A stretch of DNA of 64,000 nucleotides from Alishewanella aestuarii B11 (GTDB lineage Bacteria > Pseudomonadota > Gammaproteobacteria > Enterobacterales > Alteromonadaceae): NCBI RefSeq assembly GCF_000280055.1, contig NZ_ALAB01000027.1:310001-374000 (forward strand), given 5' to 3'. The number at the start of each line of letters is the position of its first letter. Within the stretch, counting starts at the first letter, position 1. The position numbers and the translations under genes are program-made. The notes beneath the pieces are model-generated. The model did no database searches. It had not been told where the DNA came from and worked only from the letters and a program-made list of their open reading frames with translations. This document shows positions 1 through 29,778 of the stretch, in pieces.

Positions 1-1
1 C

Positions 2-115
2 GCAAGACGCATGAAGTTTCAACCCAAGCAAGACCATCGTCAGTCAGCGCTGAAAATGCTGCTCGACGAGAACAAACGTAAACAACCCAACCCAACGATT
101 GGCTTTGTTCACTAA
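2..115 (+). CDS. Tandem AAA+ ATPase of the recombinase-RadC module, C-terminal end only (copy 1)
   Basis: Only the last 37 codons are inside the window. They match, nearly base for base, the end of the complete ATPase gene at 22098-24140, including the C-terminus reading SIGFVH (here TIGFVH). The gene continues off the left edge, so a recombinase gene like the one at 21212 probably lies just outside. The next gene starts 39 bases downstream with the same spacing as in the second copy. Function is inferred from the full-length copy. Confidence 0.85.
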   Translation, partial: ARRMKFQPKQDHRQSALKMLLDENKRKQPNPTIGFVH

Positions 116-154
116 TTTAGTGACAAGCGCCAGCGACTAACAAAGGAAATACCT

Positions 155-610
155 ATGACTAGTATATTGAGTTCTCTCAAGGTTATCGCTCGCCCAAAAA
201 TTGAGCCTAAACCACCAATCATCGGCAAACGCTTACGACTGATTGAAAAGCTCGATGAGCAATTAGCGATTGCGCAGGCCATGTTAGACGGTCAGCCTTA
301 TGAATCGTATCGCGATAAAAAAGTGAAAGACCCCGAGACGGGTGAGCGCAAAACCGTGCGCACGCGCAAAGCGGTTCGGCCTTGGTACTTCGACGATAAC
401 AATCACTACTACTTTGAAATCCGTGTCGGCTTTAAACCTATGGAGCTTGATAAAGGAAAATCTGCAATCGATGTTGGTGATAAAGCACAGCTACCGATCG
501 TGATTAACGCCATCATCAAAGCCGTTGAAGCAGGCGAGTTAGATCAACAAATCTTGCAGGCTAAACCGCAGAAACCCTCAAAACCTAAAGAGCCGAAAAA
601 GACGGCTTAA
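155..610 (+). CDS. DUF6641-like protein of the module (copy 1)
   Basis: A 151-residue charged protein with no signal peptide or membrane segment. It opens with ILSSLKVIARP, has a basic KxRKAVRPWYF segment around residues 70-78 and ends in a Lys/Pro-rich tail. The pattern of an early RLxLIEKLDEQ helix, an aromatic WYF core and a late AIIKAVEAGELDQQ helix is what I recall for DUF6641; the assignment is from memory, and the family has no known function that I am aware of. A close paralogue is at 24180. A ribosome site (AAAGGAAA) precedes ATG 155. It is the second gene of the module, between the AAA+ ATPase and RadC. Confidence 0.7.
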   Translation: MTSILSSLKVIARPKIEPKPPIIGKRLRLIEKLDEQLAIAQAMLDGQPYESYRDKKVKDPETGERKTVRTRKAVRPWYFDDNNHYYFEIRVGFKPMELDKGKSAIDVGDKAQLPIVINAIIKAVEAGELDQQILQAKPQKPSKPKEPKKTA

Positions 611-721: not shown

Positions 722-1165
722 ATGCCAACGTTACGCGAAATCGATGTGAAGTATCGATTTAAAGATGTGGCCTGCAATATCACAGGTAAGAACATTAACT
801 CACCTGAGCGCATTGCACAGTTATTTGACTATCTGAAGTATGAAACAAAAGAGCAGTTTATCGTCGTTAACCTGACACAGCAGCACGACATTAACTGTTT
901 TGAAGTCGTTGCAACCGGCACAGTCAATGCGGTTCAGGTTCGTCCTGCTGAAATACTGCGTACTGCTGTGCTACTGAATTTACCGAATATTCTGCTGATA
1001 CATAACCATCCGTCAGGCGACCCGAAACCCAGTCAGTCAGACATTAACTTTACCGAGCGGATGATTAAGGCCGCTGAAGTGTTGGACATTAAAGTGATGG
1101 ATCATCTGATTATCGGCCTTGACTGCTTTACCAGCTTGCAACAAACACACCCGCACATTTTTTAG
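722..1165 (+). CDS. radC: RadC-like JAB/MPN domain protein (copy 1)
   Basis: A 147-residue protein consisting almost only of the RadC JAB domain. The metal-site signature is intact: HNHPSG with His94 and His96, Asp107 in PSQSD, and an upstream Glu near residue 41-44. It lacks the N-terminal helix-hairpin-helix half of chromosomal RadC, as is usual for plasmid- and island-borne copies (YkfG/YeeS type). Such proteins are common in mobile elements, but their molecular role is unsettled. A GGAGGTG ribosome site precedes ATG 722. The copy at 24752 is almost identical. Confidence 0.9.
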   Translation: MPTLREIDVKYRFKDVACNITGKNINSPERIAQLFDYLKYETKEQFIVVNLTQQHDINCFEVVATGTVNAVQVRPAEILRTAVLLNLPNILLIHNHPSGDPKPSQSDINFTERMIKAAEVLDIKVMDHLIIGLDCFTSLQQTHPHIF

Positions 1166-1201: not shown

Positions 1202-1612
1202 ATGCGTATTCAGTACGAGGGCTTAGCTTTGCCTGTATCAAAGCGATTTATCGATGCACTTATCGAAGTCATTGAGCCGGTTAAAGAGCCGATGGCAGAG
1301 TTCATTACCGTTAACTTTCGTGATCCGAAATACAGCGCTGAACAAGGCGGCTACCATCCGGTTGAAATCATGCTCACAGGCCGATGTGGAAGATACGAAC
1401 TCTGCTACATCACCGATTTTTGTTTTGCAGGTATTGGCGACTGTGCCGAGCTGTTGAAGTCACTCGATTTCGAATTTATCGCTGGCACCTTTCAGGACAT
1501 AACAGGTTACTACCCTATTGAAGTCGCCAGAGAAATCTACCCGATATGGGAAGACAACTTTTTAACCTACTGGCTGGATATGGGGGTTTTTGAGGTGGAG
1601 GTATCATCATGA
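1202..1612 (+). CDS. DUF2787 family protein (copy 1)
   Basis: A 136-residue acidic protein. The DPKYSAExGGYHPVEI segment (about residues 38-53), followed by YITDF and a LDFEF stretch, is typical of DUF2787, a family seen mostly in integrative elements of marine gammaproteobacteria. Its function is unknown. A GAGGAAAAC ribosome site precedes the ATG. Its end overlaps the start of the next gene (ATGA type), so the two are translationally coupled. The paralogue at 25226 differs by scattered substitutions. Confidence 0.8.
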   Translation: MRIQYEGLALPVSKRFIDALIEVIEPVKEPMAEFITVNFRDPKYSAEQGGYHPVEIMLTGRCGRYELCYITDFCFAGIGDCAELLKSLDFEFIAGTFQDITGYYPIEVAREIYPIWEDNFLTYWLDMGVFEVEVSS

Positions 1613-1881
1613 GTAAGGTTGATAAGCGTAAAAACATCAACAACGATGATCCACGTAGAGTCGCATTAGGTCAGTGGGTACGTGAACAGCGCATGGCAAA
1701 AGGGTATACTATGCGAGATATGGCAGCGAAAAGCGGCAGACCGCATAGCTATTTTGGCAAGATTGAACAGGCACAGCGAGGACTGGACTTGTTGGAATTC
1801 ATTGATATGTGTAACTGGCTTGATGTATCACCGATGAAATCATTCTTGTCCGTGCAAGTTTCGTTTAAACAGCAGTCGTAA
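1609..1881 (+). CDS. Xre-family helix-turn-helix regulator (copy 1)
   Basis: A 90-residue protein, essentially one Xre/Cro-type HTH. GQWVREQRMAKGYTMRDMAAKSG forms helices 1-2 and RPHSYFGKIEQAQRGLDLLEFIDMCNWL the recognition and closing helices. It starts inside the end of the DUF2787 gene. It probably regulates the module or the adjoining cargo; no target was proven. The last 12 or so codons are unlike the copy at 25633, so the homology between the two modules ends inside this gene and cargo DNA begins here. Confidence 0.85.
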   Translation: MSKVDKRKNINNDDPRRVALGQWVREQRMAKGYTMRDMAAKSGRPHSYFGKIEQAQRGLDLLEFIDMCNWLDVSPMKSFLSVQVSFKQQS

Positions 1882-1938: not shown

Positions 1939-2262
1939 ATGCTGTATAAAAAAGCGTTTGGTGCTAACTTCAATCTTGGATTTAACCTAAGCGATTTTCC
2001 ACAACTTCATGACAAGAGTTATCACAACGATGTCTGTCCAAGTTTTTGGTACATGAAGAATGGTCTGTATTTTGTGTTATGGGTTGATTTCGAAAACCCT
2101 GACAATCGAGAATCTGATAGCAAACGCTATACGATTACCACAGCAGAGAATTTAGGTGACGATGGATATCCCGATATAGTTATTGATGATCAAAATGCCA
2201 CAATAATCTCTACTGATGAACCAAAAGATATAATAACATTTCTATTAAACTCAATAAGTTGA
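1939..2262 (+). CDS. Unknown 107-residue protein
   Basis: Not recognised. A small acidic soluble protein with an aromatic-rich middle (FWYMKNGLYFVLWVDF, about residues 36-51) and a C-terminal region reading PDIVIDDQNATIIST. It has no signal peptide and no membrane segment. An ATG with a nearby GAGG motif (1931-1934) supports the start. It lies between the module's Xre gene and the SOS-boxed methyltransferase. It could be an immunity-like or accessory protein of the cargo, but nothing in the sequence proves that. Confidence 0.6.
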   Translation: MLYKKAFGANFNLGFNLSDFPQLHDKSYHNDVCPSFWYMKNGLYFVLWVDFENPDNRESDSKRYTITTAENLGDDGYPDIVIDDQNATIISTDEPKDIITFLLNSIS

Positions 2263-2320
2263 AACGCATCAAGCTGAAACCCCTCACAGGGTTATACAAA
2301 AATCACACTTACCCGTTAAA

Positions 2321-2336
2321 CTGTATTAATATACAG
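2321..2336 (+). promoter_or_regulatory. LexA (SOS) box upstream of the cytosine methyltransferase
   Basis: CTG-TATTAATATA-CAG is a perfect CTG-N10-CAG LexA operator with the alternating AT core of the gammaproteobacterial consensus. It lies 42 bases upstream of ATG 2378 and covers a plausible -10 (TATACA, 2330-2335). The other SOS box in the window, at umuD (11413-11432), has the same form. This suggests the methyltransferase is controlled by DNA damage. An Xre-type operator is the alternative reading. Confidence 0.6.
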
Positions 2337-2377
2337 TCCAATATGGTCCTGTGAGCTAACTTAAAGAAATATCCTAA

Positions 2378-3475
2378 ATGAAGAAAAAATTTACTTGTAT
2401 AGAGAGCTTCTGTGGAGCAGGCGGGATGTCAATTGGCATTGACCAAGCTGAGTTCGATGTAAAAATGGCTTTTGACCTCAATGAATGGGCTGTCAAAACT
2501 TATCAAACAAGCATATCTAATAATTGTATTGTTGCTGATGCATCACAGATTAAATCTGATTTTATTAAAGAATATTCCAATTTAAAAACTGGTGAACTTG
2601 ACCTTTTCAGTGGAGGACCACCCTGCCAAGGGTTTTCAAAGCAACGGAGAGGAGCACACATATTTGATGATCCAAGAAATGGCTTAGTTAAAGAGTACGC
2701 GAGACTTGTAAAAGAATTACTGCCAAAGTCATTTATACTTGAAAATGTCGCAATTTTCGGACAAAAAAGGGGTCTCTCTCAATTATTAGAGTTAGAGAAC
2801 TACGTTGAAAACTATAGACTTTACCCTCATTTTTATAATGCAGCCGATTATGGTCTGGCACAGACACGCGAAAGATTTATCTTAGTAGGAATTCGTAAAG
2901 ATTTTGAACTACCGTTCATAAAACCAAAACCAACGGTTGAAAAATGGCGCACTGTCGGTGAAATAATAGGAGATTTACCTGAGCCTCCAATGGACTACTC
3001 TGAACATCCAGATTATTTCAATCATCAGAGAGCCCGAGTCACACAAATAAACATAGAAAGGTTTTCTCATGTGCCTCAGGGTGGTGGATGGCAAGACATC
3101 CCTTTTGATTTAAGATTAGAGTGTCATAAAAAAGCAGATACCAAAAGCGGAGGATGGCCAGATGTCTACGGCCGCCTACTTTGGAATGGTCAATGCCCAA
3201 CAATTACAGGAGGCTTTGATAGTTTTACGCGAGGTCGTTATGGGCACCCTCTTCAGAACCGACCACTAACACCTAGAGAAGCAGCAAGATTACAGGGATT
3301 CCCTGACAGTGTGAATTTTCAAGGGAGTAGGCAAGAAGTTAGGTATCAAATTGGAAATGCTGTACCACCTCCACTAGCTAAAGCTGTTGCAGAACAAATA
3401 AAGAAAGTTTTATCAAATATAGAATCAGAAGAACTTTCTATACGAAAAAATGAATTGCAGTTATCTATTTTCTGA
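2378..3475 (+). CDS. DNA cytosine-5 methyltransferase of a type II restriction-modification system
   Basis: A 365-residue C5 methyltransferase with its motifs in order: FCGAGG (motif I, residues 11-16, AdoMet binding), GGPPCQGFS with catalytic Cys83 (IV), LENV with Glu122 (VI), QTRER near residue 162 (VIII), a target-recognition region at about 190-290, then RPLTPREAARLQGFP (IX) and GNAVPPP (X). It methylates cytosine in a short site that cannot be read from sequence alone. The convergent gene at 3502-4398 is the likely cognate endonuclease. The gene is AT-rich and lies in the cargo slot between module copy 1 and the tRNA-Leu sequence. A LexA box precedes it. Confidence 0.9.
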   Translation: MKKKFTCIESFCGAGGMSIGIDQAEFDVKMAFDLNEWAVKTYQTSISNNCIVADASQIKSDFIKEYSNLKTGELDLFSGGPPCQGFSKQRRGAHIFDDPRNGLVKEYARLVKELLPKSFILENVAIFGQKRGLSQLLELENYVENYRLYPHFYNAADYGLAQTRERFILVGIRKDFELPFIKPKPTVEKWRTVGEIIGDLPEPPMDYSEHPDYFNHQRARVTQINIERFSHVPQGGGWQDIPFDLRLECHKKADTKSGGWPDVYGRLLWNGQCPTITGGFDSFTRGRYGHPLQNRPLTPREAARLQGFPDSVNFQGSRQEVRYQIGNAVPPPLAKAVAEQIKKVLSNIESEELSIRKNELQLSIF

Positions 3476-3501: not shown

Positions 3502-4398
3502 CTACTCATTTCCAACTTGATTTAATTTTATTATATTACTTAAATCACTCTTTAATAGCTCTCCAATTGAACCTACTTTTACAAGTTTGAGAATATCTTG
3601 GCTGAGATAACGTACAGGAGGATCTAGATAGTAAATTCCAGTTAACTTTGATAAGTGTTCTTGATACAGCTTAATAGTGCCAGGAACACAAATATCATTG
3701 ACTTTTTTCTTCTTGTTGTCCCTTTGCGTTTCGCTTACACAAAGAAGTATGCTTCTGTATTGACCAGGTGATATCGAGTCTAGAATCCGCTGGTGAGCAT
3801 AAGGTTGAACTATACGCTCCCTCGTTGTAGTTTTTGCTGGAAAAACAAATATTTCATTTTTATTTGAAAAGCAAATATCTGTTGATAAACTTTCACCATC
3901 TGGTAGTGATATATGTTTTCCGCGATTGTGATTGATAAAAAACCTACTAAAGATACTACCTAGAAGAATTTCAAAATGTGTTCCAGGAGTTTTTCTACTA
4001 CTATTTTTCCAAATATCATAGCAGATCGCAAAGCTCATTATTGCTGTATAAATAATACGATCAATATTTAAAACCTCTAATTGACAACTGCAATTTTCAG
4101 AATCAATCTTCTCAATAAAATCTAACCAAGATGCTTCAAATTCTTCTGGATCAGAAATAAAAAGCTCCGTTGCTATAGGCCTGCTGTAAATTAATTCGTG
4201 ATAGCAAATATAATTTTTGTTTCCTACACTTCCGTAATCATCAAATTTCAGATTGGCTATGAGTTTCAAACATTGAGAAGCGATTTCTGAAATTTCATCA
4301 AGAGGTGACAATCCAGAATCATAAAGTTTTTTTATTTTCTCGTGTTTTTCTTCAACAAGTGTTAATTCAAATGGTGCAGCCACAACTATAAAGTCCAT
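3502..4398 (-). CDS. Probable type II restriction endonuclease, partner of the adjacent methyltransferase
   Basis: A 298-residue protein converging on the methyltransferase with a 26-base gap. A possible nuclease core is LSTDICF (Asp174) followed by VFPAK (Lys189) and then TTTRERIVQPYAHQRIL, with an acidic helix around Glu143. The acidic residue expected two places before Lys189 is not obvious, so the fold is inferred. I recall the TTRERIVQP.AHQ pattern from restriction enzymes paired with C5 methyltransferases. The frame stays open upstream to 4605, but that extension would translate tRNA sequence. ATG 4398 is therefore chosen. Only 55 bases separate the start from the tRNA-Leu half. Confidence 0.65.
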   Translation of the reverse strand: MDFIVVAAPFELTLVEEKHEKIKKLYDSGLSPLDEISEIASQCLKLIANLKFDDYGSVGNKNYICYHELIYSRPIATELFISDPEEFEASWLDFIEKIDSENCSCQLEVLNIDRIIYTAIMSFAICYDIWKNSSRKTPGTHFEILLGSIFSRFFINHNRGKHISLPDGESLSTDICFSNKNEIFVFPAKTTTRERIVQPYAHQRILDSISPGQYRSILLCVSETQRDNKKKKVNDICVPGTIKLYQEHLSKLTGIYYLDPPVRYLSQDILKLVKVGSIGELLKSDLSNIIKLNQVGNE

Positions 4399-4453
4399 AC
4401 AATAAAATCTTGTATGTACAATAACGGAAAAATAACAATTGTGGAACTTAAAT

Positions 4454-4509
4454 TTGGTGCCTAGGGCCGGACTCGAACCGGCACGTTGTCGCCAACGGTG
4501 GATTTTGAA
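4454..4509 (-). repeat. attL: 3' half of the interrupted tRNA-Leu(CAA) gene
   Basis: These 56 bases are identical to 29778-29833 in the intact tRNA-Leu. They cover the CCA end, the T arm, the variable arm, the 3' side of the anticodon stem and the 7-base anticodon loop (TTTTGAA on the + strand, 4503-4509). After the loop the sequence leaves the tRNA completely. The missing 5' half is found at 30011-30042. The recombinase gene starts 223 bases to the right. This is therefore the left junction of the integrated element, with the crossover in the anticodon loop. Confidence 0.85.
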
Positions 4510-4600
4510 CAGACTACAAATAGAATAGCAGTCAACAAAACAATGAGTTACACTCATTTTTAGAAACTTTGCAAATTCTTTGCAAGAACTTCGGACTGCT
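4510..4600. promoter_or_regulatory. Left arm of the attachment site, putative recombinase binding repeats
   Basis: Contains CAATGAGTTA (4541-4550), an ACTTTGCA repeat (4566-4573) and a near copy, CTTTGCA (4578-4584). The same decamer (29966-29975) and two ACTTTGCA copies (29907-29914, 29917-29924) lie inside the right end, at comparable distances from the core. Such paired repeats on both sides of a 7-bp core are what arm-type sites of a tyrosine recombinase look like. Confidence 0.5.
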
Positions 4601-4731
4601 ATCATGCTTAAACGTCAGCCAAAAGAGCAAGTTTTGCTCATAAAAACAGCACCTTTTGCACTCTATAACTGTGGCTCTCTTAGCCTATTTCCAACTGCCA
4701 AAGATTCGAATCAACAGTATGGAGAGTGGTT

Positions 4732-6009
4732 ATGAGTGTACAACTTGAACGTCATGATGTTACCACAGGCTTATACATCTTTCTTCAGAATAACAGTAAA
4801 CGCTGGTATGCCAGATTTGTCATTGATGGTAAGTGGTATTGCAAGGCAACTAAGGAAGAAGACAAAGATAAGGCAATAGCCAAAGCACACCGCATATTCG
4901 TAGAGCATCAGATACGGTTCGAAACTAACACACTGACAACCAGTAAACGGTTCAAGGATGTTGCTGAAAAAGCCATTGCTACCATGAAACATGATATGGA
5001 ACGTGGTGCGGGTAAAGTCATCTATGAAGACTATATAGGCTGCTTAAACAGATACCATATCCCATTCTTCGACCGGACTTTCATCACCAGCATAGACGTT
5101 GACGCACTTCGAGCCTTCGATAAGTGGCGCGAAGAGAAAATGAAACGTAAGCCTGCTCGTTCTACCCTTCTAACACATAACGCTGCACTGCAACTGGTAT
5201 TCAAAGAAGCTGTTGAAAATAAGTGGATGCTTGCCTCACAAATACCAGCACTTGCAGCAGATGGCGCAAATATGGTTCGTCGAGCAGCTTTTACACCTGC
5301 CGAATACGAACGCATTCTTGAAAAACTTTTTGATATGGAGGAAAACAGTCGGAAAGAGGTAACAAAGCAGATCCGCGAATTGACGCAAGACTATGCGGAA
5401 TTTGTGATTAATACTGGTATGCGACCAGGTACTGAGCTAGACAACCTAACATGGGGTGATCTTCATATTGAGCGCCATGAGGATCAGGCAACCTTTTATA
5501 TAAGTGTACGTAAGGGTAAAACGACACTGCATACTGGTACTCGTGAAGTCGTATGCAAACGCAGTTTACAACGTACAATCTGGCGAATGACAGAACGTTT
5601 TCCAAATCGACAGGCAAAAGATCTTCTGTTTAGATTACCTGATGGTTCAGAAACTAAAGAAATCAGCCGTACCTTTAATGCTGCACTGAAAGAACTTGGC
5701 CTTGACGAATCACCACACGGCAAAAGAACACTATATTCACTTCGTCATTCGTTTATCACATGGGAACTGGTGGCTCAAAAGGTAACCATTGATGTGCTCG
5801 CACGTCAGTGTGGTACTAGTATTGAAATGATCGAGCGTCATTACAGCCATGTGATACCTCGCATGTTTAGTCAGCAACTATCAGGTGTGGTGATACCGGA
5901 TAAAAGGGAAATCGAGAAAAAGTGGGGACATCAGGAATCGTTAGTAAAACTATGGAAAGATCGGTTTATTCAGTGGGAAAAGAACTACAAACGAAAAGGA
6001 TGTATATAA
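4732..6009 (+). CDS. int: Phage-type tyrosine recombinase (integrase) of the tRNA-Leu element
   Basis: A 425-residue integrase. The N-terminal part (about 1-65) resembles an arm-binding domain, about 70-175 is the SAM-like core-binding domain, and the rest is catalytic. Visible active-site residues are Arg231 in TGMRPGTEL, a Lys in VRKGKTT (about 261-263), Arg338 in YSLRHSF (Tyr replaces the usual first His) and the nucleophile Tyr371 in ERHYSH. ATG 4732 is preferred over an in-frame GTG at 4726 because GGAG lies 7 bases upstream. It is next to the left tRNA-Leu half, as integrases usually are, and should catalyse integration and excision at the anticodon-loop core. Confidence 0.9.
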   Translation: MSVQLERHDVTTGLYIFLQNNSKRWYARFVIDGKWYCKATKEEDKDKAIAKAHRIFVEHQIRFETNTLTTSKRFKDVAEKAIATMKHDMERGAGKVIYEDYIGCLNRYHIPFFDRTFITSIDVDALRAFDKWREEKMKRKPARSTLLTHNAALQLVFKEAVENKWMLASQIPALAADGANMVRRAAFTPAEYERILEKLFDMEENSRKEVTKQIRELTQDYAEFVINTGMRPGTELDNLTWGDLHIERHEDQATFYISVRKGKTTLHTGTREVVCKRSLQRTIWRMTERFPNRQAKDLLFRLPDGSETKEISRTFNAALKELGLDESPHGKRTLYSLRHSFITWELVAQKVTIDVLARQCGTSIEMIERHYSHVIPRMFSQQLSGVVIPDKREIEKKWGHQESLVKLWKDRFIQWEKNYKRKGCI

Positions 6010-6127
6010 AAAAGAGAATTTTAAAGTTGTATAAAAAAACCACAAAAAGGGTTGCAATATTGGTAAGCAACCGGGCAATTATGATAACAGGTTGGTGAGC
6101 ACTAACACAAAAATGACACTGTATATT

Positions 6128-6154
6128 TTGACAGTTTTCTCGCTTGCATAAATA
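6128..6154 (+). promoter_or_regulatory. Candidate promoter for the structured RNA and 33-codon gene
   Basis: TTGACA (6128-6133) followed 15 bases later by TAAATA (6149-6154). The -35 is perfect, but the -10 and spacing are weak. It lies about 60 bases before the first hairpin of the structured region. The rest of 6010-6180 is AT-rich with no gene seen. Confidence 0.3.
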
Positions 6155-10011: not shown

Positions 10012-10015
10012 GTAT

Positions 10016-22105: not shown

Positions 22106-24140
22106 GGTATCGAGAATGGCAAAAGCTAAACATAAATCACCATCACGTCACCTAAATCATATGGCTGGCGCGATATGTTATCGCTTACTCACCGAAATAC
22201 CTGATGCACTCTTTATGATTGAGCTATCAGTACCGATGATTAGTCGTGTTATTGGTACAGGCATTTCATATTCTGAAAGTTATTCGAACCATGAACTTGC
22301 CGAGTACTTACGCATACCAGACCCGTCAGTAAAAAAGACCGCGCAAGTACGCCAAAACCTCGTAAAACTGTGTGAGCTGTTCGAAGTAAACACCAAGTTT
22401 GCGGTGTTACTTGAGTTTATTCTGCTGATGAACATCAACCCGCATGCGAAGTTCTTGCTTGATAACCTTGAGCTACCGGATGAGGCACACGACTTCATGC
22501 AGTTTTTCGAGGAAATAAGTGATTTAGCACGGCATGAAATCACGGAAGCGGTCGAAACGTTGATGAATCGTGGCATCTTTGCCACCGACAATTCGCTAAC
22601 GCTGTTGCAGTGGATTGAAATCTCACAGCCGATCCAGCACCTACTGACTAAAGAGGTGGTAACGTCATGCGAACAAGTACTATCTCGCTTTTTAGTTGAG
22701 AGTCCTGCTGCACAATTCGACATCGACAACTTTGAGTATGTGAATACTGATTTACTGCTGCGGTATCTAAAGAATGCCGCACAAGCAAAGCATGTTGGCG
22801 TGAACATCTTACTCTATGGCTATGCAGGCACAGGTAAAACTGAACTTGCTCGCGCCCTTGCTGCACATATTGACCGTAAACTTTATGAAGTTGGCAGTCA
22901 GGTTGTAAAAGACGGCAAATTGCACAATCCGCATAACACCAAATACGTCAGTAGTCAGCGCTTACAGTACTTAACGACCGTGCAGACGCTGCTTCGTGGC
23001 AGTAGTGAAAACATACTGCTGGTTGATGAGTGTGAAAGTATTTTCTACAACGCGGATAAAGCCTATAGCAAAGATATGCTGCATCAGACGTTGGAGCAAA
23101 ATACGGTGCCAGCAATATGGATAACAAACTACATCGGCTGTTTAGAAGACAGTTATATCAGGCGCTTTAAGCTGGTACTCGAAGTCACCTCACCTGATGA
23201 AACAAAGCTGCGTGAACTGACGACGAATGCGGTTACAGGCTTGAATATCAGTGACGATACCATTGATAAAATTGCTGCGATAAAACACATCACGCCCGCA
23301 GTTATTGGTAACGCGGCTTATGTGTCACGCACCATAGGTGATAAACGACGCAAAGCAGAAAGTACCGTACTAGAGGTGATTGAACATACCTTAGATGCGT
23401 GTGGTTTGTGGCAACAACCCATGGATTACCAGCAAGAAATGCCGTTCGATGTGAGCCTACTTAACATTAAACAACCCAAGCAGGTGATTAATGATATTGC
23501 CTATGCACTAAAAGCGAAACAACCTGTTCGTGTGTTGTTATGTGGTCCTCCTGGTACAGGTAAAACAGCCTACGCGCATCACATGACACAAGAACAAGGT
23601 CTGAAAATGAAGCGCGTTAAATGCTCTGACATTTTAAGCAAGTATGTCGGTGACAGTGAGCAGAATGTACGTAATCTGTTTTTAGAAGCGCATCAAAACA
23701 AACAGGTACTGTTACTCGATGAAGTTGACAGTTTACTGGTCAATCGCGAACGTTTAAAAGCGCATCATGAAGTGCAGCTCGTTAACGAAATCCTGACGCA
23801 AATGGAGTGCTTTACACAGCCCCTGTTTGCTGCAACTAATTTCGAAACACTGTTAGACAAAGCCGTACTGCGTAGATTCGATTTTAAGCTTGAGTGCGAC
23901 TACTTGCATACAGAGCAAGTCTTGATGCTGTTCCGTCGCATCCTAAGCGCTTCTAAGCTATCAGCAGACGAACAACAGCAGCTCAGCACACTCAAGTACT
24001 TAACCCCAGGCGATTTTGCGATCATCGCAAGACGTATGAAGTTTCAACCCAAGCAAGACCATCGTCAGTCAGCGCTAAATATGCTGCTCGACGAGAATAA
24101 ACGTAAACAACCCAACCCCTCGATTGGCTTTGTTCACTAA
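22098..24140 (+). CDS. Tandem AAA+ ATPase of the module (copy 2)
   Basis: A 680-residue protein with two AAA+ domains. Domain 1 has Walker A GYAGTGKTE near residue 240 and Walker B ILLVDECES near 310. Domain 2 has Walker A GPPGTGKTA near 481 and Walker B VLLLDEVDS near 540, followed by FAATNFE and an arginine-finger-like LRRFDF. It resembles Cdc48/FtsH-type remodelling ATPases. The N-terminal 210 residues are helical and unassigned. ATG 22098, overlapping the recombinase stop, is preferred over an upstream in-frame ATG at 21984 that would run through recombinase coding sequence. A partner role in remodelling recombinase-DNA complexes is a guess. Confidence 0.88.
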   Translation: MSKVSRMAKAKHKSPSRHLNHMAGAICYRLLTEIPDALFMIELSVPMISRVIGTGISYSESYSNHELAEYLRIPDPSVKKTAQVRQNLVKLCELFEVNTKFAVLLEFILLMNINPHAKFLLDNLELPDEAHDFMQFFEEISDLARHEITEAVETLMNRGIFATDNSLTLLQWIEISQPIQHLLTKEVVTSCEQVLSRFLVESPAAQFDIDNFEYVNTDLLLRYLKNAAQAKHVGVNILLYGYAGTGKTELARALAAHIDRKLYEVGSQVVKDGKLHNPHNTKYVSSQRLQYLTTVQTLLRGSSENILLVDECESIFYNADKAYSKDMLHQTLEQNTVPAIWITNYIGCLEDSYIRRFKLVLEVTSPDETKLRELTTNAVTGLNISDDTIDKIAAIKHITPAVIGNAAYVSRTIGDKRRKAESTVLEVIEHTLDACGLWQQPMDYQQEMPFDVSLLNIKQPKQVINDIAYALKAKQPVRVLLCGPPGTGKTAYAHHMTQEQGLKMKRVKCSDILSKYVGDSEQNVRNLFLEAHQNKQVLLLDEVDSLLVNRERLKAHHEVQLVNEILTQMECFTQPLFAATNFETLLDKAVLRRFDFKLECDYLHTEQVLMLFRRILSASKLSADEQQQLSTLKYLTPGDFAIIARRMKFQPKQDHRQSALNMLLDENKRKQPNPSIGFVH

Positions 24141-24179
24141 TTTAGTAACAAGCGCCAGCGACTAACAAAGGAAATACCT

Positions 24180-24629
24180 ATGACAAGCATATTGAGTTCT
24201 CTCAAGGTTATCGCTCGCCCAAAAATTGAGCCTAAACCACCCATTATCGGCAAACGCTTACGCCTCATCGAAAAGCTCGATGAGCAGTTAGCAATTGCAC
24301 AGGCCATGTTAGACGGTCAACCGTTTGAAGCTTATCGTGAAAAGAAGGTAACTGATCCAGAAACAGGTGAGAAAAAAGTAGTACGCAAACGCAAAGCCGT
24401 ACGGCCTTGGTACTTTGATGACAAAGAACATTACTTCTTTGAAATTCGTGTCGGCTTTAAGGCGATGGAGATTGATAAAGGTAAAACCGCAATTGATGTC
24501 GGTGACAAAACACAATTGCCTGTTGTGATTAACGCCATCATCAAAGCGGTTGAAGCGGGTGAATTAGATCAGCAAATCATCCAATCGAAACCGGAGAAAC
24601 CCTCAAAACCTAAAGAGCCGAAAAAATAG
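24180..24629 (+). CDS. DUF6641-like protein of the module (copy 2)
   Basis: A 149-residue close paralogue of the protein at 155-610. Differences are mostly conservative and cluster at residues 48-85 (for example SYRDKK against AYREKK). Spacing to the ATPase (39 bases) and the ribosome site AAAGGAAA are the same. It keeps the basic-aromatic core and the Lys/Pro tail. Function unknown; it belongs to the conserved six-gene module. Confidence 0.7.
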   Translation: MTSILSSLKVIARPKIEPKPPIIGKRLRLIEKLDEQLAIAQAMLDGQPFEAYREKKVTDPETGEKKVVRKRKAVRPWYFDDKEHYFFEIRVGFKAMEIDKGKTAIDVGDKTQLPVVINAIIKAVEAGELDQQIIQSKPEKPSKPKEPKK

Positions 24630-24648
24630 GCTTAACCATGAAAGTGAT

Positions 24649-24674
24649 TGCCAGAGTGTTGCTGCGCTCTGGCA
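24649..24674 (+). promoter_or_regulatory. Conserved stem-loop between DUF6641 and RadC genes (copy 2)
   Basis: TGCCAGAGTG-TTGCTG-CGCTCTGGCA. The stem is the same as at 624-649, with one position now a G-U wobble and a different loop. It lies in a short frame from ATG 24638 that also starts with M-x-VIARV. Conservation of the stem with a changed loop suggests that the RNA fold matters. Confidence 0.5.
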
Positions 24675-24751
24675 GTTTCAGAGGTTTTGACAGTGCATAT
24701 GTTTATTACTGCACTTAGCAACTATAAGGTTTCAACGGTTTTGGAGGTGCT

Positions 24752-25195
24752 ATGCCAACGTTACGCGAAATCGATGTGAAGTATCGTTTCAAAGAAGTGG
24801 TGTGCAATATCACAGGTAAGAACATTAACTCACCTGAGCGCATCGCACAGCTATTTGACTATCTGAAGTATGAAACAAAAGAGCAGTTTATCGTCGTGAA
24901 CCTGACACAACAGCACGACATTAACTGTTTTGAAGTCGTTGCAACCGGCACAGTCAATGCGGTTCAGGTTCGTCCTGCTGAAATACTGCGTACTGCTGTG
25001 CTACTGAATTTACCGAATATTCTGCTGATACATAACCATCCGTCTGGCGACCCAAAACCCAGTCAGTCAGATATTAATTTTACCGAAAGGATGATTAAAG
25101 CCGCTGAAGTGCTGGACATCAAAGTGCTCGACCATCTGATTATCGGCCTTGATAGCTTCACTAGCCTGATGCAAACACACCCATACATTTTTTAG
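24752..25195 (+). CDS. radC: RadC-like JAB/MPN domain protein (copy 2)
   Basis: A 147-residue single-domain RadC, nearly identical to the protein at 722-1165. The metal motif HNHPSGDPKPSQSD is fully conserved (His94, His96, Asp107). Long stretches are identical even at the DNA level, for example across 24930-25040, which implies a recent common source or gene conversion between the two modules. It has a GGAGGTG ribosome site. Confidence 0.9.
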   Translation: MPTLREIDVKYRFKEVVCNITGKNINSPERIAQLFDYLKYETKEQFIVVNLTQQHDINCFEVVATGTVNAVQVRPAEILRTAVLLNLPNILLIHNHPSGDPKPSQSDINFTERMIKAAEVLDIKVLDHLIIGLDSFTSLMQTHPYIF

Positions 25196-25225
25196 CACAT
25201 CTTAATAACATAGAGGAAAACACCT

Positions 25226-25636
25226 ATGCGTATTCAGTACGAGGGGCTTGCTTTGCCTGTGTCAAAGCGATTGATCGATGCACTTATCGACTTAATAAAA
25301 CCTGTAAAAGAGCCGATGGCAGAGTTCGTCACCGTTAACTTTCGTGATCCGAAATACAGTGCTGAACATGGTGGCTACCATCCGGTTGAAATCATGATCA
25401 CAGGCAGAAGCGGCAGATATGACCTCTGCTACATCACAGACTTTTGTTATGCAGGTATCGGGGATTATGCAGAACTTGTAAAAGCGCTCGACTTTGAGTT
25501 TATCGCTGGTACGTTTCAAGACATATCAGGCTATTACCCGATCGAAGTCGCCAGAGAAATCTACCCGATATGGGAAGATAACTTTTTAACCTACTGGCTT
25601 GAAATGAGCGTGTTTGATATTGAGGTGACATCATGA
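25226..25636 (+). CDS. DUF2787 family protein (copy 2)
   Basis: A 136-residue paralogue of the protein at 1202-1612 with the same DPKYSAExGGYHPVEI and YITDF motifs. Substitutions are scattered. It overlaps the following Xre gene by 4 bases (ATGA). Function unknown. Confidence 0.8.
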   Translation: MRIQYEGLALPVSKRLIDALIDLIKPVKEPMAEFVTVNFRDPKYSAEHGGYHPVEIMITGRSGRYDLCYITDFCYAGIGDYAELVKALDFEFIAGTFQDISGYYPIEVAREIYPIWEDNFLTYWLEMSVFDIEVTS

Positions 25637-25902
25637 GCAAGATTGAAAAACGCAAAAACATTAACAACGATGATCCACGCAGATTAGCTTTAGGTCAGTG
25701 GGTACGTGAACAGCGCATGGCAAAAGGGTATACTATGCGCGATATGGCAGCGAAAAGTGGCAGACCGCATAGCTATTTTGGCAAGATTGAGCAGGCACAG
25801 CGTGGGCTGGATTTGTTGGAATTCATTGATATGTGTAACTGGCTTGATGTATCTCCGACGAAATCATTTCTTTCACTTCGGGTATTTCTTAAATCTGAGT
25901 AA
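25633..25902 (+). CDS. Xre-family helix-turn-helix regulator (copy 2)
   Basis: An 89-residue protein with an HTH identical to the copy at 1609 over the recognition helix (SGRPHSYFGKIEQAQRGLDL). The two should therefore bind the same operator and cross-regulate. The C-terminal dozen residues (FLSLRVFLKSE) differ, because module homology stops here and the ABC-3C cargo follows. Confidence 0.85.
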   Translation: MSKIEKRKNINNDDPRRLALGQWVREQRMAKGYTMRDMAAKSGRPHSYFGKIEQAQRGLDLLEFIDMCNWLDVSPTKSFLSLRVFLKSE

Positions 25903-25910: not shown

Positions 25911-25934
25911 TCGAGAGGTCGGGTGACCTCTCGA
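25911..25934. terminator. Inverted repeat between the Xre gene and the ABC-3C operon
   Basis: TCGAGAGGTC-GGGT-GACCTCTCGA is a perfect 10-bp stem with a 4-base loop, 8 bases after the Xre stop and between converging genes. It lacks T-runs, so it may be a weak bidirectional terminator or a recombination or protein-binding site at the edge of the cargo slot. Confidence 0.5.
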
Positions 25935-26008: not shown

Positions 26009-28042
26009 TTAATCAGCCTTTTTCACTTGTTCTGGTACAGGCTCAATTAGCCCTCTATTACGCCATCTGTTGCCATTCACCAGCGACTCAAACTCAACCC
26101 CGTTTGATAGTTTTAGATTGTCGGCATGATCAGTCACTATGATCTGCGGACTAAAACCAATGTTTGATTTGAGGTCATTGCAATATGTGGATAGCTGACT
26201 GAATAGATTTTCAACAGCTTTGATATCTTCGTCGATATTTTGACCAACATTAAGGGTTTTACGCTGTTCAGCCTCTTGTTTTTTTTGTTCTTCAAAGGTC
26301 GCAGAGTTATCGCGGTTGAAGTTAGGGAAATACACCTGAGTAGGCTGATCCAAAAACAGTATTGAAGGGATAGCACATTTATCGCCCAGCTCAGCAAAAT
26401 ACTTATGCAAAGCTAAAAATAACGTTACATGGCAGTATAGCCAATTTGCACCACTCCCCATTGAGCGTAGATAGATTTTTTCGTCGTCAGGTGTTAAATG
26501 GTAAAGATCGAATGTTTCAAATGAAAAATGAAGATTAATTGGTTTGTAACTGGCTTCAAACTCAAAATGACTGCCAATTACAGACATATATTCGTTTACC
26601 TTATCCGATGCATGTGTCAAACCTTTTTTCACATCGTACACTTTAAGCGCATCAGTAATTTGCTTGAGTTGTTTCCTAACCTCTTTAATTTCTTTTTCAA
26701 GCTCTGCGTCATCAGCCATATTAAGGGTATCAAGAAGCGCAAATAGCTTTGCCTTCTGCATTACAATACTCTCATAAAGGCTCTTTTGTTCTATTAACTG
26801 CTTCTCTGTTTTCTCAATCTCTGTTATTTGCTGATTGAGCTCAGTCAATGCCCTATTTACAACTTCAATAGTACGCTGAACTTCGACCAAAGAGGATTCA
26901 AACTTTGCTTTCATCGGGCGAGCTTGCGCAAGATTTCCCGATACTTTTGAGATAGCCTGTTGAAGTTTTTCAGCACTTTCACGTAAGCTGTTTTTTTCGG
27001 TTTGACAAAACGGACATATTGAAGCGGAGATATGAACATGCTTGGGTGAGCTAAACTGTTTTATGTTATCAACAAATCGTTCCTCTTCATGAATATGCTT
27101 TTTAATCGAAGATGCTTGCCGCTGTAACTGCCTTAACTCAGACGTTTTTTGATTACGAGCTTGTTTCAATTGCATGTACCGTTGCGTTATTGCATCGGAG
27201 TTATGATTTATTTTCTCAGCAACGATGATGACATCGAGTTGGTCTTTGGCATCTTGAGGGTGCCGAAGTACCTTGTCCAAGGATAAGGGAACATCTTTAA
27301 AGCCCATCAAAGCGTATAGTTGACTTAAAACAGGGCCGACTTTCTGTTTATAACTTTCGGACGTACGCTTGTTGGTTTCTTTTTGACGCTCTAATCGTCG
27401 CTCCTCTGCATTTAGTCTTTCTTTTTCTTGTGATAGGTGAAAGAATTTTTGATCGACAAGCCCTAAAAATATCTTTGTATGCTCAATAGCCTGATCTCGC
27501 TTTTCCTTCTCGTCGAACCGATAAAATAACGCATGCTTATTGGCAACCAAGTTTTGATGTTGAAGGATAAACGACGAAAAACTACGAATAGATGGTGTAG
27601 GAGCTTTTTGGCCTCGATTAATTCTAGTCTGGAGCGACTCATCAACATCATCTATATCTAAGAAAAAGCCCCTTAAATGCTTTGTAAATTCTTTTAAAGG
27701 TCGAAAATAGTTGGCATTGAAGTAGTCTCGATCAATTTCTGTCGTGTTGAATGCGTCTACACGACGAAAAAAAGCCTTTGTAGCCATATCGGGATCACGA
27801 GCAATCACCATATCTTGCTCATTAACTGCAAGAGCCACATAGTAAATGGCTGCACTGGTGGTGATAACGCCTTTTGGGATGGTGTTTTCACTACTGCCAA
27901 AGCAGTAGTCAAATATTTCTATTAAAGCACTTTTACCTGTCGATGACTTACCAGTAACAACATTTAGCCCAGCTTTAAAATTAACGGGGTGTTTGATTCC
28001 TTGTTTATCAATCACGCCTATTTCATGAATAAGTGTTTTCAT
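26009..28042 (-). CDS. ABC-3C system SMC-like ATPase (DUF3732)
   Basis: A 677-residue SMC/Rad50-like ATPase. Walker A is GLNVVTGKSSTGKSALIEIFDYCFG (P-loop about residues 30-38). A long coiled coil spans about 200-460 and is interrupted by a zinc-hook-like CPFC (ICPFCQTEK, near 345). The signature and Walker B part is MGSGANWLYCHVTLFLALHKYF and SILFLDQPTQVYFP (about 545-590). The end, IIVTDHADNL and IEPVPEQV, is typical of DUF3732. It overlaps the middle-component gene by 4 bases. ABC-3C systems are predicted defence systems in which the ATPase senses invading DNA. Confidence 0.85.
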   Translation of the reverse strand: MKTLIHEIGVIDKQGIKHPVNFKAGLNVVTGKSSTGKSALIEIFDYCFGSSENTIPKGVITTSAAIYYVALAVNEQDMVIARDPDMATKAFFRRVDAFNTTEIDRDYFNANYFRPLKEFTKHLRGFFLDIDDVDESLQTRINRGQKAPTPSIRSFSSFILQHQNLVANKHALFYRFDEKEKRDQAIEHTKIFLGLVDQKFFHLSQEKERLNAEERRLERQKETNKRTSESYKQKVGPVLSQLYALMGFKDVPLSLDKVLRHPQDAKDQLDVIIVAEKINHNSDAITQRYMQLKQARNQKTSELRQLQRQASSIKKHIHEEERFVDNIKQFSSPKHVHISASICPFCQTEKNSLRESAEKLQQAISKVSGNLAQARPMKAKFESSLVEVQRTIEVVNRALTELNQQITEIEKTEKQLIEQKSLYESIVMQKAKLFALLDTLNMADDAELEKEIKEVRKQLKQITDALKVYDVKKGLTHASDKVNEYMSVIGSHFEFEASYKPINLHFSFETFDLYHLTPDDEKIYLRSMGSGANWLYCHVTLFLALHKYFAELGDKCAIPSILFLDQPTQVYFPNFNRDNSATFEEQKKQEAEQRKTLNVGQNIDEDIKAVENLFSQLSTYCNDLKSNIGFSPQIIVTDHADNLKLSNGVEFESLVNGNRWRNRGLIEPVPEQVKKAD

Positions 28043-28491
28043 CGCGGTTTCACTCCTAAAAACGCATAAATCTCGACCACTGAGTGCCCGCTAAATAAGC
28101 TACCTAACTTTTCTGCACTTTTTTGAGAGGTAAAGGTTGAATCAGCCACATCACATACCGCCAGAGATAGTCGTTGCTCATTAACCGATAGCCAGTCATT
28201 GATTAAGCAGTATTGAATGCATTGCTCTGTTAAGTCTTGAAACCCGTCAATTCGCTCTTGTAGGTCATAGAGTTTGGTTCGGTCGTCAAAAACTGACCAA
28301 ATTGAGCTTCGTTTGTTCGAGTTATAGAGCTTATGGCTGTAAAGAAGATGACTACAAAGCGGAATGACCAACGGAGCAAGCAACAAGTTGTTTTCTGACT
28401 CATCCAAATGTGTGTAAAACGAGGCAAGATATGGCCCATATTCAAATGGGTTGTACTTTAACTCGTACAGAGCTTCGACAATACTACTCAT
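28039..28491 (-). CDS. ABC-3C middle component
   Basis: A 150-residue protein between the ATPase and the nuclease-like gene, overlapping both by 4 bases. It has helical segments such as LLLAPLVIPLCSHLLYSHKLY and a C-terminal FSGHSVVEIYAFLGVKPR. Proteins at this position, with an early PL-hydrophobic helix and a late G-hydrophobic motif, are the three-component ABC middle component. It is thought to link effector and ATPase. The call depends mainly on position and size. Confidence 0.75.
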   Translation of the reverse strand: MSSIVEALYELKYNPFEYGPYLASFYTHLDESENNLLLAPLVIPLCSHLLYSHKLYNSNKRSSIWSVFDDRTKLYDLQERIDGFQDLTEQCIQYCLINDWLSVNEQRLSLAVCDVADSTFTSQKSAEKLGSLFSGHSVVEIYAFLGVKPR

Positions 28492-29615
28492 GGCTCAATC
28501 TTCCACTTTAAATTTCTCTCGTCATCGTCCATGGCATCGTGGATCAAACCATTTTTGTACTCAATCGGCGGGATGACATTACCCATATTGAGCGCTTGCT
28601 CTTCCATGGTTTTGTTATACAGTAACTTCGAACTTTTAAGCACATCGACTGCTTGGAGTTGGGCACTTGAATGAGCAAGCTTAAACTTTTTTACTAGCTG
28701 GTTCTGGTAGGTCATCGTTTTATCTTTGTATAAAGGATATTCATCAAGTTGCTCTAAAAGAGAGTTTTGCAGTTCTAGCCAGTTGCCGACAGCATCAGGG
28801 ATCATTTGATGATGATCTATTTCAGCTATTTTTTGGACGAACGGTCTGTCTTGATGTAGTTCAACTTCATGCTCCGACGCTTCATACCCTGAAAAAACCG
28901 GAAAAGTGAATTCCTTTTTACACAGAAGGGCTGTTAACTCTTCACACTTTGCTACGAAAGCCTGCTGGCTAATGGTCCAAGATTGCTGCGTTGCTTGCGC
29001 ATATACAAATCCAACTAACCCATCAAGGTAACTGTTTAAGTTATTCTTCGGAATGCCAACAGGTTTAGCCAGAATCTGATTTTCTAGTGCTTGAGCATTA
29101 TCGGCCTCAGTAAACAAGGTAACTTTGCCAAGTACACTTTTTAGCAAAGCCTCATCAAAAGCCATCACAGTTTTCTGTATTTTTATGACTTCAGATAGCT
29201 TTTCAGCATTAAGCTGCTCATCGGTGCGCTCAGCAAAAATATGTTGTAGTACCTGTAAACGTTTCTCAGCTGTTTGCGTGTTCCAATCATTTAGCCGGGA
29301 AGTTGCACCAAAAGCCTGAGTGGTATGCAGCACCAAACCACCATATTGGGTGTGGTCAAACTCTTTTGCTAACCAGTTCTTGAGTGTTTTCCAGAGGTTT
29401 TCGTGGTGGTCAGTAAGTGGAGCCGAATAATCTTTAACTTCTGTCTGGGTCGATGCCAAAGCATCTGGTGACAACAGACTCACATCACCATCTTTTTCAA
29501 ACCAAACAGATTGGCTTTCTTCAAGTAAAAAGCATTTATCCAAGCCAATCAGTACCTGGTAATGAAAAGCTAACGCGGTCGTTAGTACTGCATTTTTTGT
29601 TTGTCCTGTAATCAT
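28488..29615 (-). CDS. ABC-3C effector with a nuclease-like N-terminus
   Basis: A 375-residue protein. The N-terminal part contains WFEKDGDVSLL (Asp44) and TQTEVKDYSAPLTDHHENLWKTLKNW (Glu59-x-Lys61), the spacing of a PD-(D/E)xK nuclease as seen in Cap4-like domains at the head of ABC-3C effectors. The rest (about 110-375) is a helical C-terminal domain typical of these proteins. First gene of the three-gene operon. It would cut DNA, or otherwise kill, when the ATPase and middle component are triggered. The catalytic reading is inferred from the short motif. Confidence 0.75.
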   Translation of the reverse strand: MITGQTKNAVLTTALAFHYQVLIGLDKCFLLEESQSVWFEKDGDVSLLSPDALASTQTEVKDYSAPLTDHHENLWKTLKNWLAKEFDHTQYGGLVLHTTQAFGATSRLNDWNTQTAEKRLQVLQHIFAERTDEQLNAEKLSEVIKIQKTVMAFDEALLKSVLGKVTLFTEADNAQALENQILAKPVGIPKNNLNSYLDGLVGFVYAQATQQSWTISQQAFVAKCEELTALLCKKEFTFPVFSGYEASEHEVELHQDRPFVQKIAEIDHHQMIPDAVGNWLELQNSLLEQLDEYPLYKDKTMTYQNQLVKKFKLAHSSAQLQAVDVLKSSKLLYNKTMEEQALNMGNVIPPIEYKNGLIHDAMDDDERNLKWKIEP

Positions 29616-29778
29616 TTTAACAACATCCCTTTCCCTTGGATTTGTTTTAATGAGAAGTTAAAGCAAAACACAACTAAATTCCAGACCTTTAAGCCTATCG
29701 AATAAACTTCAATAGATTCTGTGTACTTAATCCGGTTTTTAAGAAAGGAGTAATAATTACAAACTTTGAAAATTTGAT
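29616..29778. other. Promoter region of the ABC-3C operon
   Basis: About 160 AT-rich bases between the effector start and the tRNA-Leu. It should hold the leftward ABC-3C promoter, but no strong match was picked out. Transcription from the tRNA-Leu also runs leftward into this region. Confidence 0.4.

Follow-up and report, generated by a model that had tools for sequence, protein, structure and literature searches.

Repeated recombinase-ATPase operons of Alishewanella aestuarii probably belong to two tandem defense islands in a tRNA-Leu(CAA) gene

Introduction

The nearest published class of element found for the locus described here is that of the IntY islands of Pseudomonas (I23, I44, and I55). 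In the part of the source available, these have a tyrosine integrase at one end, an RNA gene as target, RadC among their common genes, and variable defense cargo, and in the same part the authors recognized no transfer genes (PMC12595487). Here, we analyze 64,000 nucleotides of Alishewanella aestuarii B11 (assembly GCF_000280055.1, contig NZ_ALAB01000027.1, positions 310,001 to 374,000 of the forward strand; "the window"), in which an operon for a XerD-like tyrosine recombinase (XERD), a tandem AAA+ ATPase, and proteins of the DUF6641, RadC, DUF2787, and Xre types recurs, followed each time by different defense genes. The locus resembles the IntY islands in the traits listed, but its target is tRNA-Leu(CAA) and not tmRNA, and a backbone operon of XERD, tandem AAA+, DUF6641, and DUF2787 and a complete replacement tRNA set it apart from those islands as that part of the source presents them. 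AlpA, YqaJ, and Gp2-like proteins had no Pfam match among the part of the island genes that was scanned, and no search was aimed at them. A literature search found no published description of the island family; its coverage was incomplete, and most subscription journals lay outside it.

The original prediction, made from the letters of the window, had read the repeated operon and the genes after it as a dedicated cargo slot served by XERD and its AAA+ partner. The observation is confirmed and the interpretation is partly supported. We are fairly confident that two tandem integrative islands, which insert site-specifically in the anticodon loop of a tRNA-Leu(CAA) gene, have the repeated block in common as their right-hand operon. 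By sequence, an island integrase (INT) is encoded near the left junction and the crossover core is ATTTTGAA; insertion splits the host tRNA, the right end of the island bears a complete replacement tRNA-Leu gene, and the second island sits within the tRNA of the first.

Two tandem islands of one family

Contig coordinates are window coordinates plus 310000, and 45 kb of upstream contig was added to the window for the repeat comparison. As predicted, the block recurs at the window start, where positions 1-1847 are 87.6% identical to 24026-25872 over 1855 columns. Once the upstream contig is included, the match extends over the recombinase and AAA+ genes (contig 307070-308237 versus 331096-332262, 88.7%; contig 308787-311847 versus 332812-335872, 82.4%). 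The six operon proteins of the two copies are 73-96% identical and keep their order. Also duplicated, in the same order as the whole operon, are the INT genes (contig 288366-289926 versus 314452-316012, 91.0% identical as DNA and 97% as protein), a UmuDC region (87.0%), and a flagellin region, and each copy has a tRNA-Leu sequence and an integrase at its start and cargo and a tRNA-Leu sequence at its end. Because the duplicated order runs from tRNA and INT to cargo and tRNA, the repeated blocks are, by their sequence, best read as the right-hand parts of two tandem islands of one family at one tRNA-Leu(CAA) gene. We call these E1 (contig 288368 to 314509) and E2 (right limit at contig 340010); that the two blocks are tandem copies of an island is invisible within the window.

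The E1 and E2 operons are mosaic, with 60-77% identity in windows of the AAA+ gene and 78-97% elsewhere, and the operons of E1 and genome G016 are 91-98% identical throughout. Next to the tRNA, the chromosomes of G000 and G016 share 90.1% identity (a single segment of 1,673 bp), and from operon versus chromosome identity we infer that transfer between the two lineages may have been recent.

Splitting and replacement of the host tRNA

ARAGORN saw the island end in 20 loci, and in these as in the complete islands the target was tRNA-Leu(CAA). An integrase gene lies beside one attachment site (3.8 kb inside the end in the Planctobacterium island), tRNA-derived sequence lies at both ends, and in 9 of 10 loci INT is closely preceded by a tRNA-Leu 3' piece of at least 31 bp. 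At the right end of E2, a 40-bp half tRNA starts exactly at ATTTTGAA, 137 bp beyond an intact tRNA-Leu gene, and at this junction only tRNA passed its Rfam gathering score. Such a 5'-half remnant was present in 20 of 21 island loci, in 16 of them 115-138 bp from the tRNA; those of L070 and L072 match over only 29-35 bp at 88-90%.

Among 25 genomes of the same genus, a 5'-half pattern hit twice in each of the 10 module-bearing genomes and once in each of the 15 others. The pattern misses divergent tRNAs, and the 15 module-free regions were re-read directly. G004 and G005 proved to have an intact tRNA-Leu(CAA) and then a perfect remnant 105 bp on, which brings the tally to 10 of 10 genomes with the module and 2 of 15 without; the remaining 13 are remnant free with a single intact tRNA in view. 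The site is split in 12 of the 25 genomes and intact in 13. No AAA+ homolog of at least 44% identity is encoded by G004 or G005, and on the same contig each has a 52% identical INT with an adjoining tRNA 3' piece. When 19 genomes were searched for both features, a remnant was found in 12 of 13 with INT (all but G018) and in none of 6 without. Because G004 and G005 have INT and a remnant but no operon, the remnant goes with INT and not with the operon, and for the same reason integration can apparently do without the operon.

In all 13 remnant-free genomes, the DNA from the core rightwards matches the G000 remnant and chromosome, and in nine of them the 3' half of the allele matches the left junction of E1 (96.6-98.3% over 56-63 bp). 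The 137-bp right-end segment between the island tRNA and the remnant is common to the eight island loci compared (six at 68-96% over full length; L057 at 84% over 96 bp and L055 at 84% over 32 bp), and none of the 13 remnant-free tRNA regions matched it. The segment carries the arm-type repeat TTTGCAA in 15 of 19 loci, versus 2 of 19 for control DNA and 2 of 13 for remnant-free genomes. The same kind of repeat was seen by eye in 9 of 11 left ends, and CTTTGCAAA-type repeats lie inside both ends of most islands. On the strength of the remnant, the right-end segment, the arm repeats, and the empty-site comparison, we place the end of E2 at 30003-30010, correcting the predicted end at 29778; the host tRNA is thus split, and the working tRNA is the island's own. 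As a rule, integration by a tyrosine integrase restores just the 3' part of the target tRNA, and by that standard a complete replacement is unusual. The sequence of the island tRNA recurs unchanged in the chromosomal tRNA of the remnant-free genome G020, perhaps its source. No other tRNA-Leu copy within two mismatches of the pattern was found in the genome of the window, a search that a divergent copy could escape.

E2 cuts the tRNA of E1 at the same core. Because each island restores a target, islands may stack, with the outermost giving the working tRNA. Half-tRNA remnants are stacked in G016 (L054, beyond the tRNA, one remnant being degenerate) and in L058, and look like footprints of earlier islands in the same anticodon loop. 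Close tRNA-Leu 3'-end matches also recur elsewhere: four about 150 bp apart on contig 1 of Shewanella sp. KJ10-1 (G065; 101969, 102112, 102284, and 102428), extra ones on contig 10 of G009 (650404 and 651229), and extra ones in Bowmanella (L152). The operon-free INT regions of G004 (contig 26, about 68.2-105.2 kb) and G005 (contig 8, about 77.8-105 kb, with a further tRNA 3' piece at 82914), with their divergent tRNA-Leu(CAA), may by their sequence belong to a wider family of tRNA-replacing islands.

Several points weigh against the explanation by stacked, tRNA-replacing islands. The E1 tRNA is not followed by a 5' half and right-end segment, such that a later collapse of 177 bp must be assumed; the extra half tRNA was presumably lost by collapse of that 177-bp repeat, and L058, with remnants at 118 and 276 bp, has the look of an uncollapsed stack. 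L065 lacks a remnant, as does G018, whose INT has an internal stop and lies, like a tRNA 3' piece, far from the intact tRNA; L068, L075, and L080 have no tRNA-Leu downstream in the roughly 9 kb in view; and in Bowmanella a further tRNA 3' piece lies 154 bp away from the tRNA. In none of the 13 remnant-free genomes did the DNA to the left of E1 turn up next to the tRNA, such that only the tRNA half supports the left junction. INT islands without the operon exist in G004 and G005. Finally, the evidence is from assemblies, with no circular form or excision seen, the role given to XERD and AAA+ is our inference, and cargo exchange is deduced from mosaicism.

A conserved operon with a promoter-like leader

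AAA+ homologs were sought in 60 genomes, that of the window included; at a threshold of 44% identity they occurred in the genome of the window and 11 others, all of one genus, and weaker matches were more distant or generic AAA+ proteins. An AAA+ alignment scan of 84,980 species genomes yielded 207 loci, the best 80 of which were kept, and 33 of these 80 (L054-L086, many in the same genomes as the G-numbered ones) encode AAA+ proteins of 42-73% identity. Their hosts are Rheinheimera, Alishewanella, Arsukibacterium, Idiomarina, Shewanella, Paraglaciecola, Alteromonas, Aliiglaciecola, Bowmanella, Planctobacterium, and a few metagenome-assembled genomes named to family or class only. The predicted synteny held up across these genera in one order: XerD-like, tandem AAA+, DUF6641, (RadC), DUF2787, (Xre), which we regard as a putative operon behind a conserved leader. 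XERD is directly 5' of AAA+ in 29 of the 33 loci (the exceptions are L079 and L083, at a contig edge, and L063 and L084, which are not), DUF6641 is 3' of AAA+ in 31 (a contig end cuts the other two), DUF2787 is present in 30, RadC is present in 16, and Xre follows DUF2787 in 10, all in the genus of the window. In the class, DUF2787 was found in 1 of 229 genomes, namely, that of the window. At 48 more distant AAA+ loci, no XERD, INT, DUF6641, or DUF2787 and one RadC match were seen among the four or fewer neighbors displayed per side, and the XERD/AAA+ pairing therefore looks, on this sampling, particular to these islands. Viral contigs gave three distant AAA+ matches (26-32% identity).

Eleven complete islands, E1 and E2 included, are about 19 to 46 kb long and bracketed by tRNA-Leu end sequences. 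INT, XERD, AAA+, DUF6641, and DUF2787 are present in all 11; the islands were found via AAA+, and the presence of AAA+ is thus a matter of selection, but that of the others is not. That XERD is distinct from the island integrase was predicted correctly, both being encoded by every complete island. A Rep-like gene is found in 10 of the 11, RadC in 6, a UmuC-like gene in 5, Xre in 4, and flagellin in 3. Among 30 leaders examined, 4 lack the upstream box and 6 lack a TAnnAT; in all 20 in which both were recognized, they are 36-38 bp apart, and E1 has a second TAnnAT at 32. From its sequence, we read the leader as the likely operon promoter with an activator site.

Residues R148, K173, H244, R247, H270, and Y279 of XERD, which we take to be catalytic, are invariant in 18 of 18 proteins, and the XERD and AAA+ genes overlap in E2. 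XERD and AAA+ probably act together on the element.

A variable terminal bay

The operon is followed by a bay that reaches to the island tRNA and whose content differs from island to island. In E1, the bay holds a C5 cytosine methylase gene behind a LexA-like (SOS) box and, by PADLOC, a type II restriction enzyme match; the methylase adjoins the restriction enzyme homolog as in a type II restriction-modification system, judged from sequence. In E2, it holds an ABC-3C (MC3, DUF3732) system that PADLOC names Lamassu LmuABC, with adjacent homologs of LmuA, LmuB, and LmuC. Both cargoes, different as predicted, adjoin an identical 56-bp tRNA-Leu sequence (4454-4509 and 29778-29833). Measured from the last operon gene to the tRNA sequence, bays of 24 islands range from 50 bp (L072) to 24,737 bp (Bowmanella).

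Of 59 bay open reading frames (ORFs) of at least 140 amino acids, a list that excludes the window's own ORFs and one from Bowmanella, 20 were hand-picked for a PADLOC scan (threshold 1e-5, no background control). Seventeen matched, from 11 of 12 sampled islands, and with E1 and E2 included, defense-type genes occur in 13 of 14 bays scanned; the match in the D18 bay is a generic SMC-type ATPase. Bays hold type II restriction-modification (E1, G016, and R1928s), Lamassu (E2), type I restriction-modification (G029), CBASS-like genes (E1-E2 and patatin in G012; TRIP13 and SMODS in L062), methylases (Roce and Idiomarina), argonaute (Planctobacterium), TmtA/GajB-like genes (Bowmanella), and a GmrSD-type gene (L081). 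Cargo recurs: the G016 and Planctobacterium methylases are 82% identical, and Roce and L081 share two proteins (69-73%). Bay genes of other kinds include a Rep gene (Paraglaciecola and Roce) and a pyridine redox enzyme (D18). A 459-amino-acid bay protein of Rheinheimera hassiensis (L056, 19340-20719) has no PADLOC or Pfam match and is a candidate defense protein.

Outside the bay, PADLOC matched 7 of 10 further proteins of E1 and E2, and defense genes there include Kiwa in E2 and a helicase-DUF2290 pair and PDC-M68A/B in E1. The terminal bay is thus real but is not an exclusive defense site. Mosaicism suggests that bay contents probably change by homologous recombination anchored in the operon and in the tRNA or right end.

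Alternative explanations

The operon could itself be a defense system, made up of an IetA-related AAA+ protein, a JAB-domain RadC, and an Xre regulator, that became constant island cargo. The C-terminal half of AAA+ indeed matches IetA models, distantly related tandem AAA+ proteins exist away from these islands, and related INT islands lack the operon (G004 and G005). We nonetheless consider a defense system unlikely: the operon is present in 11 of 11 complete islands (a sample biased by having been found through the operon), its order is constant across genera, no curated cutoff was reached, and to our knowledge a catalytically intact recombinase is not a usual defense effector.

Alternatively, the left edge of the operon could be a recombination site at which XERD exchanges the upstream replication module and not the cargo. 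In a comparison of 24 loci with the GTCAAAAA box, 21 of 25 pairs of at least 80% identity lose their similarity no more than 12 bp from it, the leader contains an inverted repeat, and replication blocks differing in type and orientation adjoin it. Over all 199 aligned pairs, however, only 103 stop within 12 bp, with 24 stopping further upstream and 72 inside. Moreover, the fixed 36-38 bp between the box and the -10-like element resembles a promoter, the arms and spacer of the inverted repeat differ by genus, and a second box copy occurs before the replication block in just one of 11 islands (E = 0.004). Listed pairs of replication proteins with at least 35% identity over at least 60% of the shorter protein are never opposite in orientation; the two orientation exceptions pair E2 or L071-type proteins only partly. 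Exchange by XERD at the left edge is thus quite improbable. A related candidate, inversion of the replication block driven by XERD, was rejected, as no listed replication pair of at least 35% identity was in opposite orientation and the blocks look like different ones exchanged. In E1 (contig 302616-307036) and E2, the blocks occupy the same place in opposite orientation with proteins 20-25% identical, as if they had been exchanged as a unit.

The predicted role of XERD and AAA+ was that of a cargo-loading machine that swaps defense cassettes into a slot after Xre. The operon adjoins the bay, the content of the bay turns over, the catalytic residues of XERD are kept, and its gene overlaps that of AAA+. 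Words shared between the leader and the left cargo end were slightly longer for own than for mismatched pairs (means, 8.2 versus 6.2), but the longest, 10, was reached by 11% of mismatched pairs, and we take the difference as chance. The longest word common to both cargo ends averaged 7.1 in 16 own pairs and 7.9 in mismatched pairs, and the leader and the right cargo end shared 3.1 and 5.2, respectively. Similarity does end near the Xre 3' end, as predicted, the E1-E2 match stopping 34-37 bp before the end of the gene; a common crossover point there is not borne out, as the breakpoints of 12 loci range from -124 to +52 bp of the Xre end and that of E1-G016 lies at +215 bp. In the pair G008-G029, similarity resumes for 285 bp shortly past the breakpoint, and no motif common to the breakpoints was seen in an alignment of the 12 loci. 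The bays of 11 complete islands contain no integrase match, 23 bays contain no attachment site relic beyond an 11-bp match, several Shewanella islands keep the operon beside bays of only 50-603 bp, and defense genes sit elsewhere in E1 and E2 as well. Because there are no repeats at the cargo ends beyond the control, no fixed crossover, and no integrase or attachment site relic in the bays, we reject the cargo-loading machine as very unlikely. Delivery of cargo by a second element at the attachment site was likewise rejected on those 23 bays (the 50-bp bay of L072 was skipped) and 11 integrase-free bays.

That the half tRNA beside the intact one is a host duplication unrelated to islands is hardly credible, for although the half tRNA sits on the side toward the chromosome, is found across genera, and occurs without the module in G004 and G005, it follows INT in its distribution and begins exactly at the core. 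The segment before it has the arm repeats and was not matched in the remnant-free tRNA regions, and in G000 the half tRNA and the sequence on its right match the tRNA of remnant-free genomes and its flank.

We return to the tandem tRNA-replacing islands, in which XERD and AAA+ would most likely act on the element and not on its cargo, by resolution of dimers or tandems or by excision or replication of a circle. More tentatively, it is possible that the islands replace a host tRNA-Leu(CAA) that is perhaps the only one, creating host dependence and fresh landing sites, and that XERD, driven by its AAA+ partner as in a self-sufficient Xer/FtsK-like pair, manages the copy number and resolution of stacked or circular islands.

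Other features of the islands

The features of E1 and E2 in the window are collected in Table 1. PADLOC matches the E1 restriction enzyme from ORF residue 84, and its true start is probably near 4398. The match of the Rep_trans-like protein to Pfam is below cutoff. LexA-like sites also occur after INT (6119-6134) and at the UmuD-like gene (11415-11430), which suggests possible SOS control of several island genes. Flagellin genes lie inside the islands near the replication block (in E1 at contig 301397-302590), also in the G016, G029, and Planctobacterium islands; the E1 and E2 copies are 56% identical, and one guess is that island flagellin is a decoy or receptor switch against flagellotropic phages. 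Perfect 8-bp tandem repeats lie between flagellin and the 276-amino-acid gene (16418-16547). In a Shewanella xiamenensis island (L159/L160), a tRNA-Lys gene is predicted inside, at island position 5233-5308.

Table 1. Features of islands E1 and E2 (window coordinates)
Feature	Position	Strand	Remarks
E1 tandem AAA+ gene, 3' end	1-115	+	XerD-like gene and rest of E1 upstream, contig 288368-310000
E1 DUF6641 gene	155-610	+	88% to E2 copy
E1 RadC-like JAB-domain gene	722-1165	+	96% to E2 copy
E1 DUF2787 gene	1202-1612	+	86% to E2 copy
E1 Xre-type gene	1609-1881	+	Last of conserved operon
E1 bay cargo	1939-3475	+	107-amino-acid protein 1939-2262; C5 cytosine methyltransferase 2378-3475
LexA-like box	2321-2336		Before E1 methyltransferase
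E1 bay cargo, type II restriction enzyme match	3502-4605	-	PDLC03502
3' half of E1's own tRNA-Leu	4454-4509	-	E1/E2 junction; apparently cut by E2 at core ATTTTGAA (4502-4509)
E2 left arm-type repeat	4567-4586		CTTTGCAAATTCTTTGCAAG
E2 island integrase	4726-6009	+	Tyrosine recombinase; 97% to E1's
Kiwa	9097-10597	-	KwaB 9097-10011, KwaA 10016-10597; E2 defense cargo outside terminal bay
UmuD-like and UmuC-like genes	11336-13155	+	11336-11881 and 11878-13155; named from 94-96% identical E1 copies
E2 flagellin gene	14704-15993	+	
E2 replication block	16717-21058		276-amino-acid gene (-), DUF3987 protein (+), Rep_trans-like protein (+)
Operon leader, putative promoter	21092-21211	+	Box 21092-21106; extended -10-like TGCTATAAT 21130-21138; stem-loop
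E2 XERD gene	21212-22105	+	XerD-like tyrosine recombinase
E2 tandem AAA+ ATPase gene	22098-24140	+	Overlaps XERD stop
E2 DUF6641 gene	24180-24629	+	
E2 RadC-like gene	24752-25195	+	
E2 DUF2787 gene	25226-25636	+	Fold of VC0508/VC1805
E2 Xre-type gene	25633-25902	+	
Stem-loop past operon	25912-25933	+	CGAGAGGTCGGGTGACCTCTCG
E2 bay cargo, Lamassu/ABC-3C	26009-29615	-	LmuB 26009-28042, LmuC 28039-28491, LmuA 28488-29615
Complete tRNA-Leu(CAA) gene, island borne	29779-29865	-	
Island right-end segment	29866-30002		Arm-type repeat CTTTGCAAAACTTTGCA at 29908-29924
Right junction	30003-30042	-	Core ATTTTGAA 30003-30010 and split-off 5' half of host tRNA-Leu

Discussion

What appeared to be a cargo-loading module becomes a defined island family in several genera. 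The variable bay, at a predictable place, is a spot to look for defense systems, some of them unrecognized by PADLOC, and the exact junctions make excision, stacking, and cargo turnover testable. By bringing a replacement tRNA, a defense island may have a simple means of making its own loss difficult, and if it is true that XERD and AAA+ act on the element, the recombinase would have an ATPase partner of its own.

The DUF2787 protein shares its fold with VC0508 of Vibrio island VSP-II and VC1805 of VPI-2 (Foldseek TM 0.83-0.88, 36-38% identity), a likeness at the level of this protein only, which tells no function; a model of DUF6641 (pLDDT 81) had a best PDB match of only E 0.21. The cargo is not that of an integron, as XERD scores 80.3 bits against the integron integrase model (cutoff, 265) and the cargo ends share no repeats. 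Gamma-mobile-trio islands are set apart by the scores of XERD against GmtY (24.3 bits versus 340) and GmtZ (17.4 versus 600). In comparison with IetAS, AAA+ falls below the NCBIfam cutoff (129.9 bits versus 510), and its neighbor in 29 of 33 loci is a recombinase and not a protease partner. No relaxase or type IV secretion gene was named among the part of the island genes scanned, and no search was aimed at them. Islands GEI-D18A and ICERspD18B of Rheinheimera sp. D18 lie at other sites, according to the part of the source available.

XERD resembles the Xer recombinases in its closest solved relatives (XerC-like, XerA, and XerD structures) and in its catalytic residues. It differs in its dedicated AAA+ neighbor and in its scores, which fall far below the NCBIfam cutoffs for XerC (141.2 versus 335.15) and XerD (128.4 versus 329.6), such that by these cutoffs it is neither a XerC nor a XerD; the best other matches of Xer size in the host genome are 29-30% identical. 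Finally, the islands resemble the strand-biased circularizing integrative elements and GInt/Tn554-like elements, as the available part of the source describes them, in having more than one tyrosine recombinase, a conserved operon, and gammaproteobacterial hosts (PMC10214605). In the elements so described, two catalytic recombinases and Tfp share an operon, whereas here INT and XERD lie apart and the partner of XERD is an AAA+ ATPase; unlike in those elements, the core here is part of a tRNA anticodon loop, and insertion splits the host gene.

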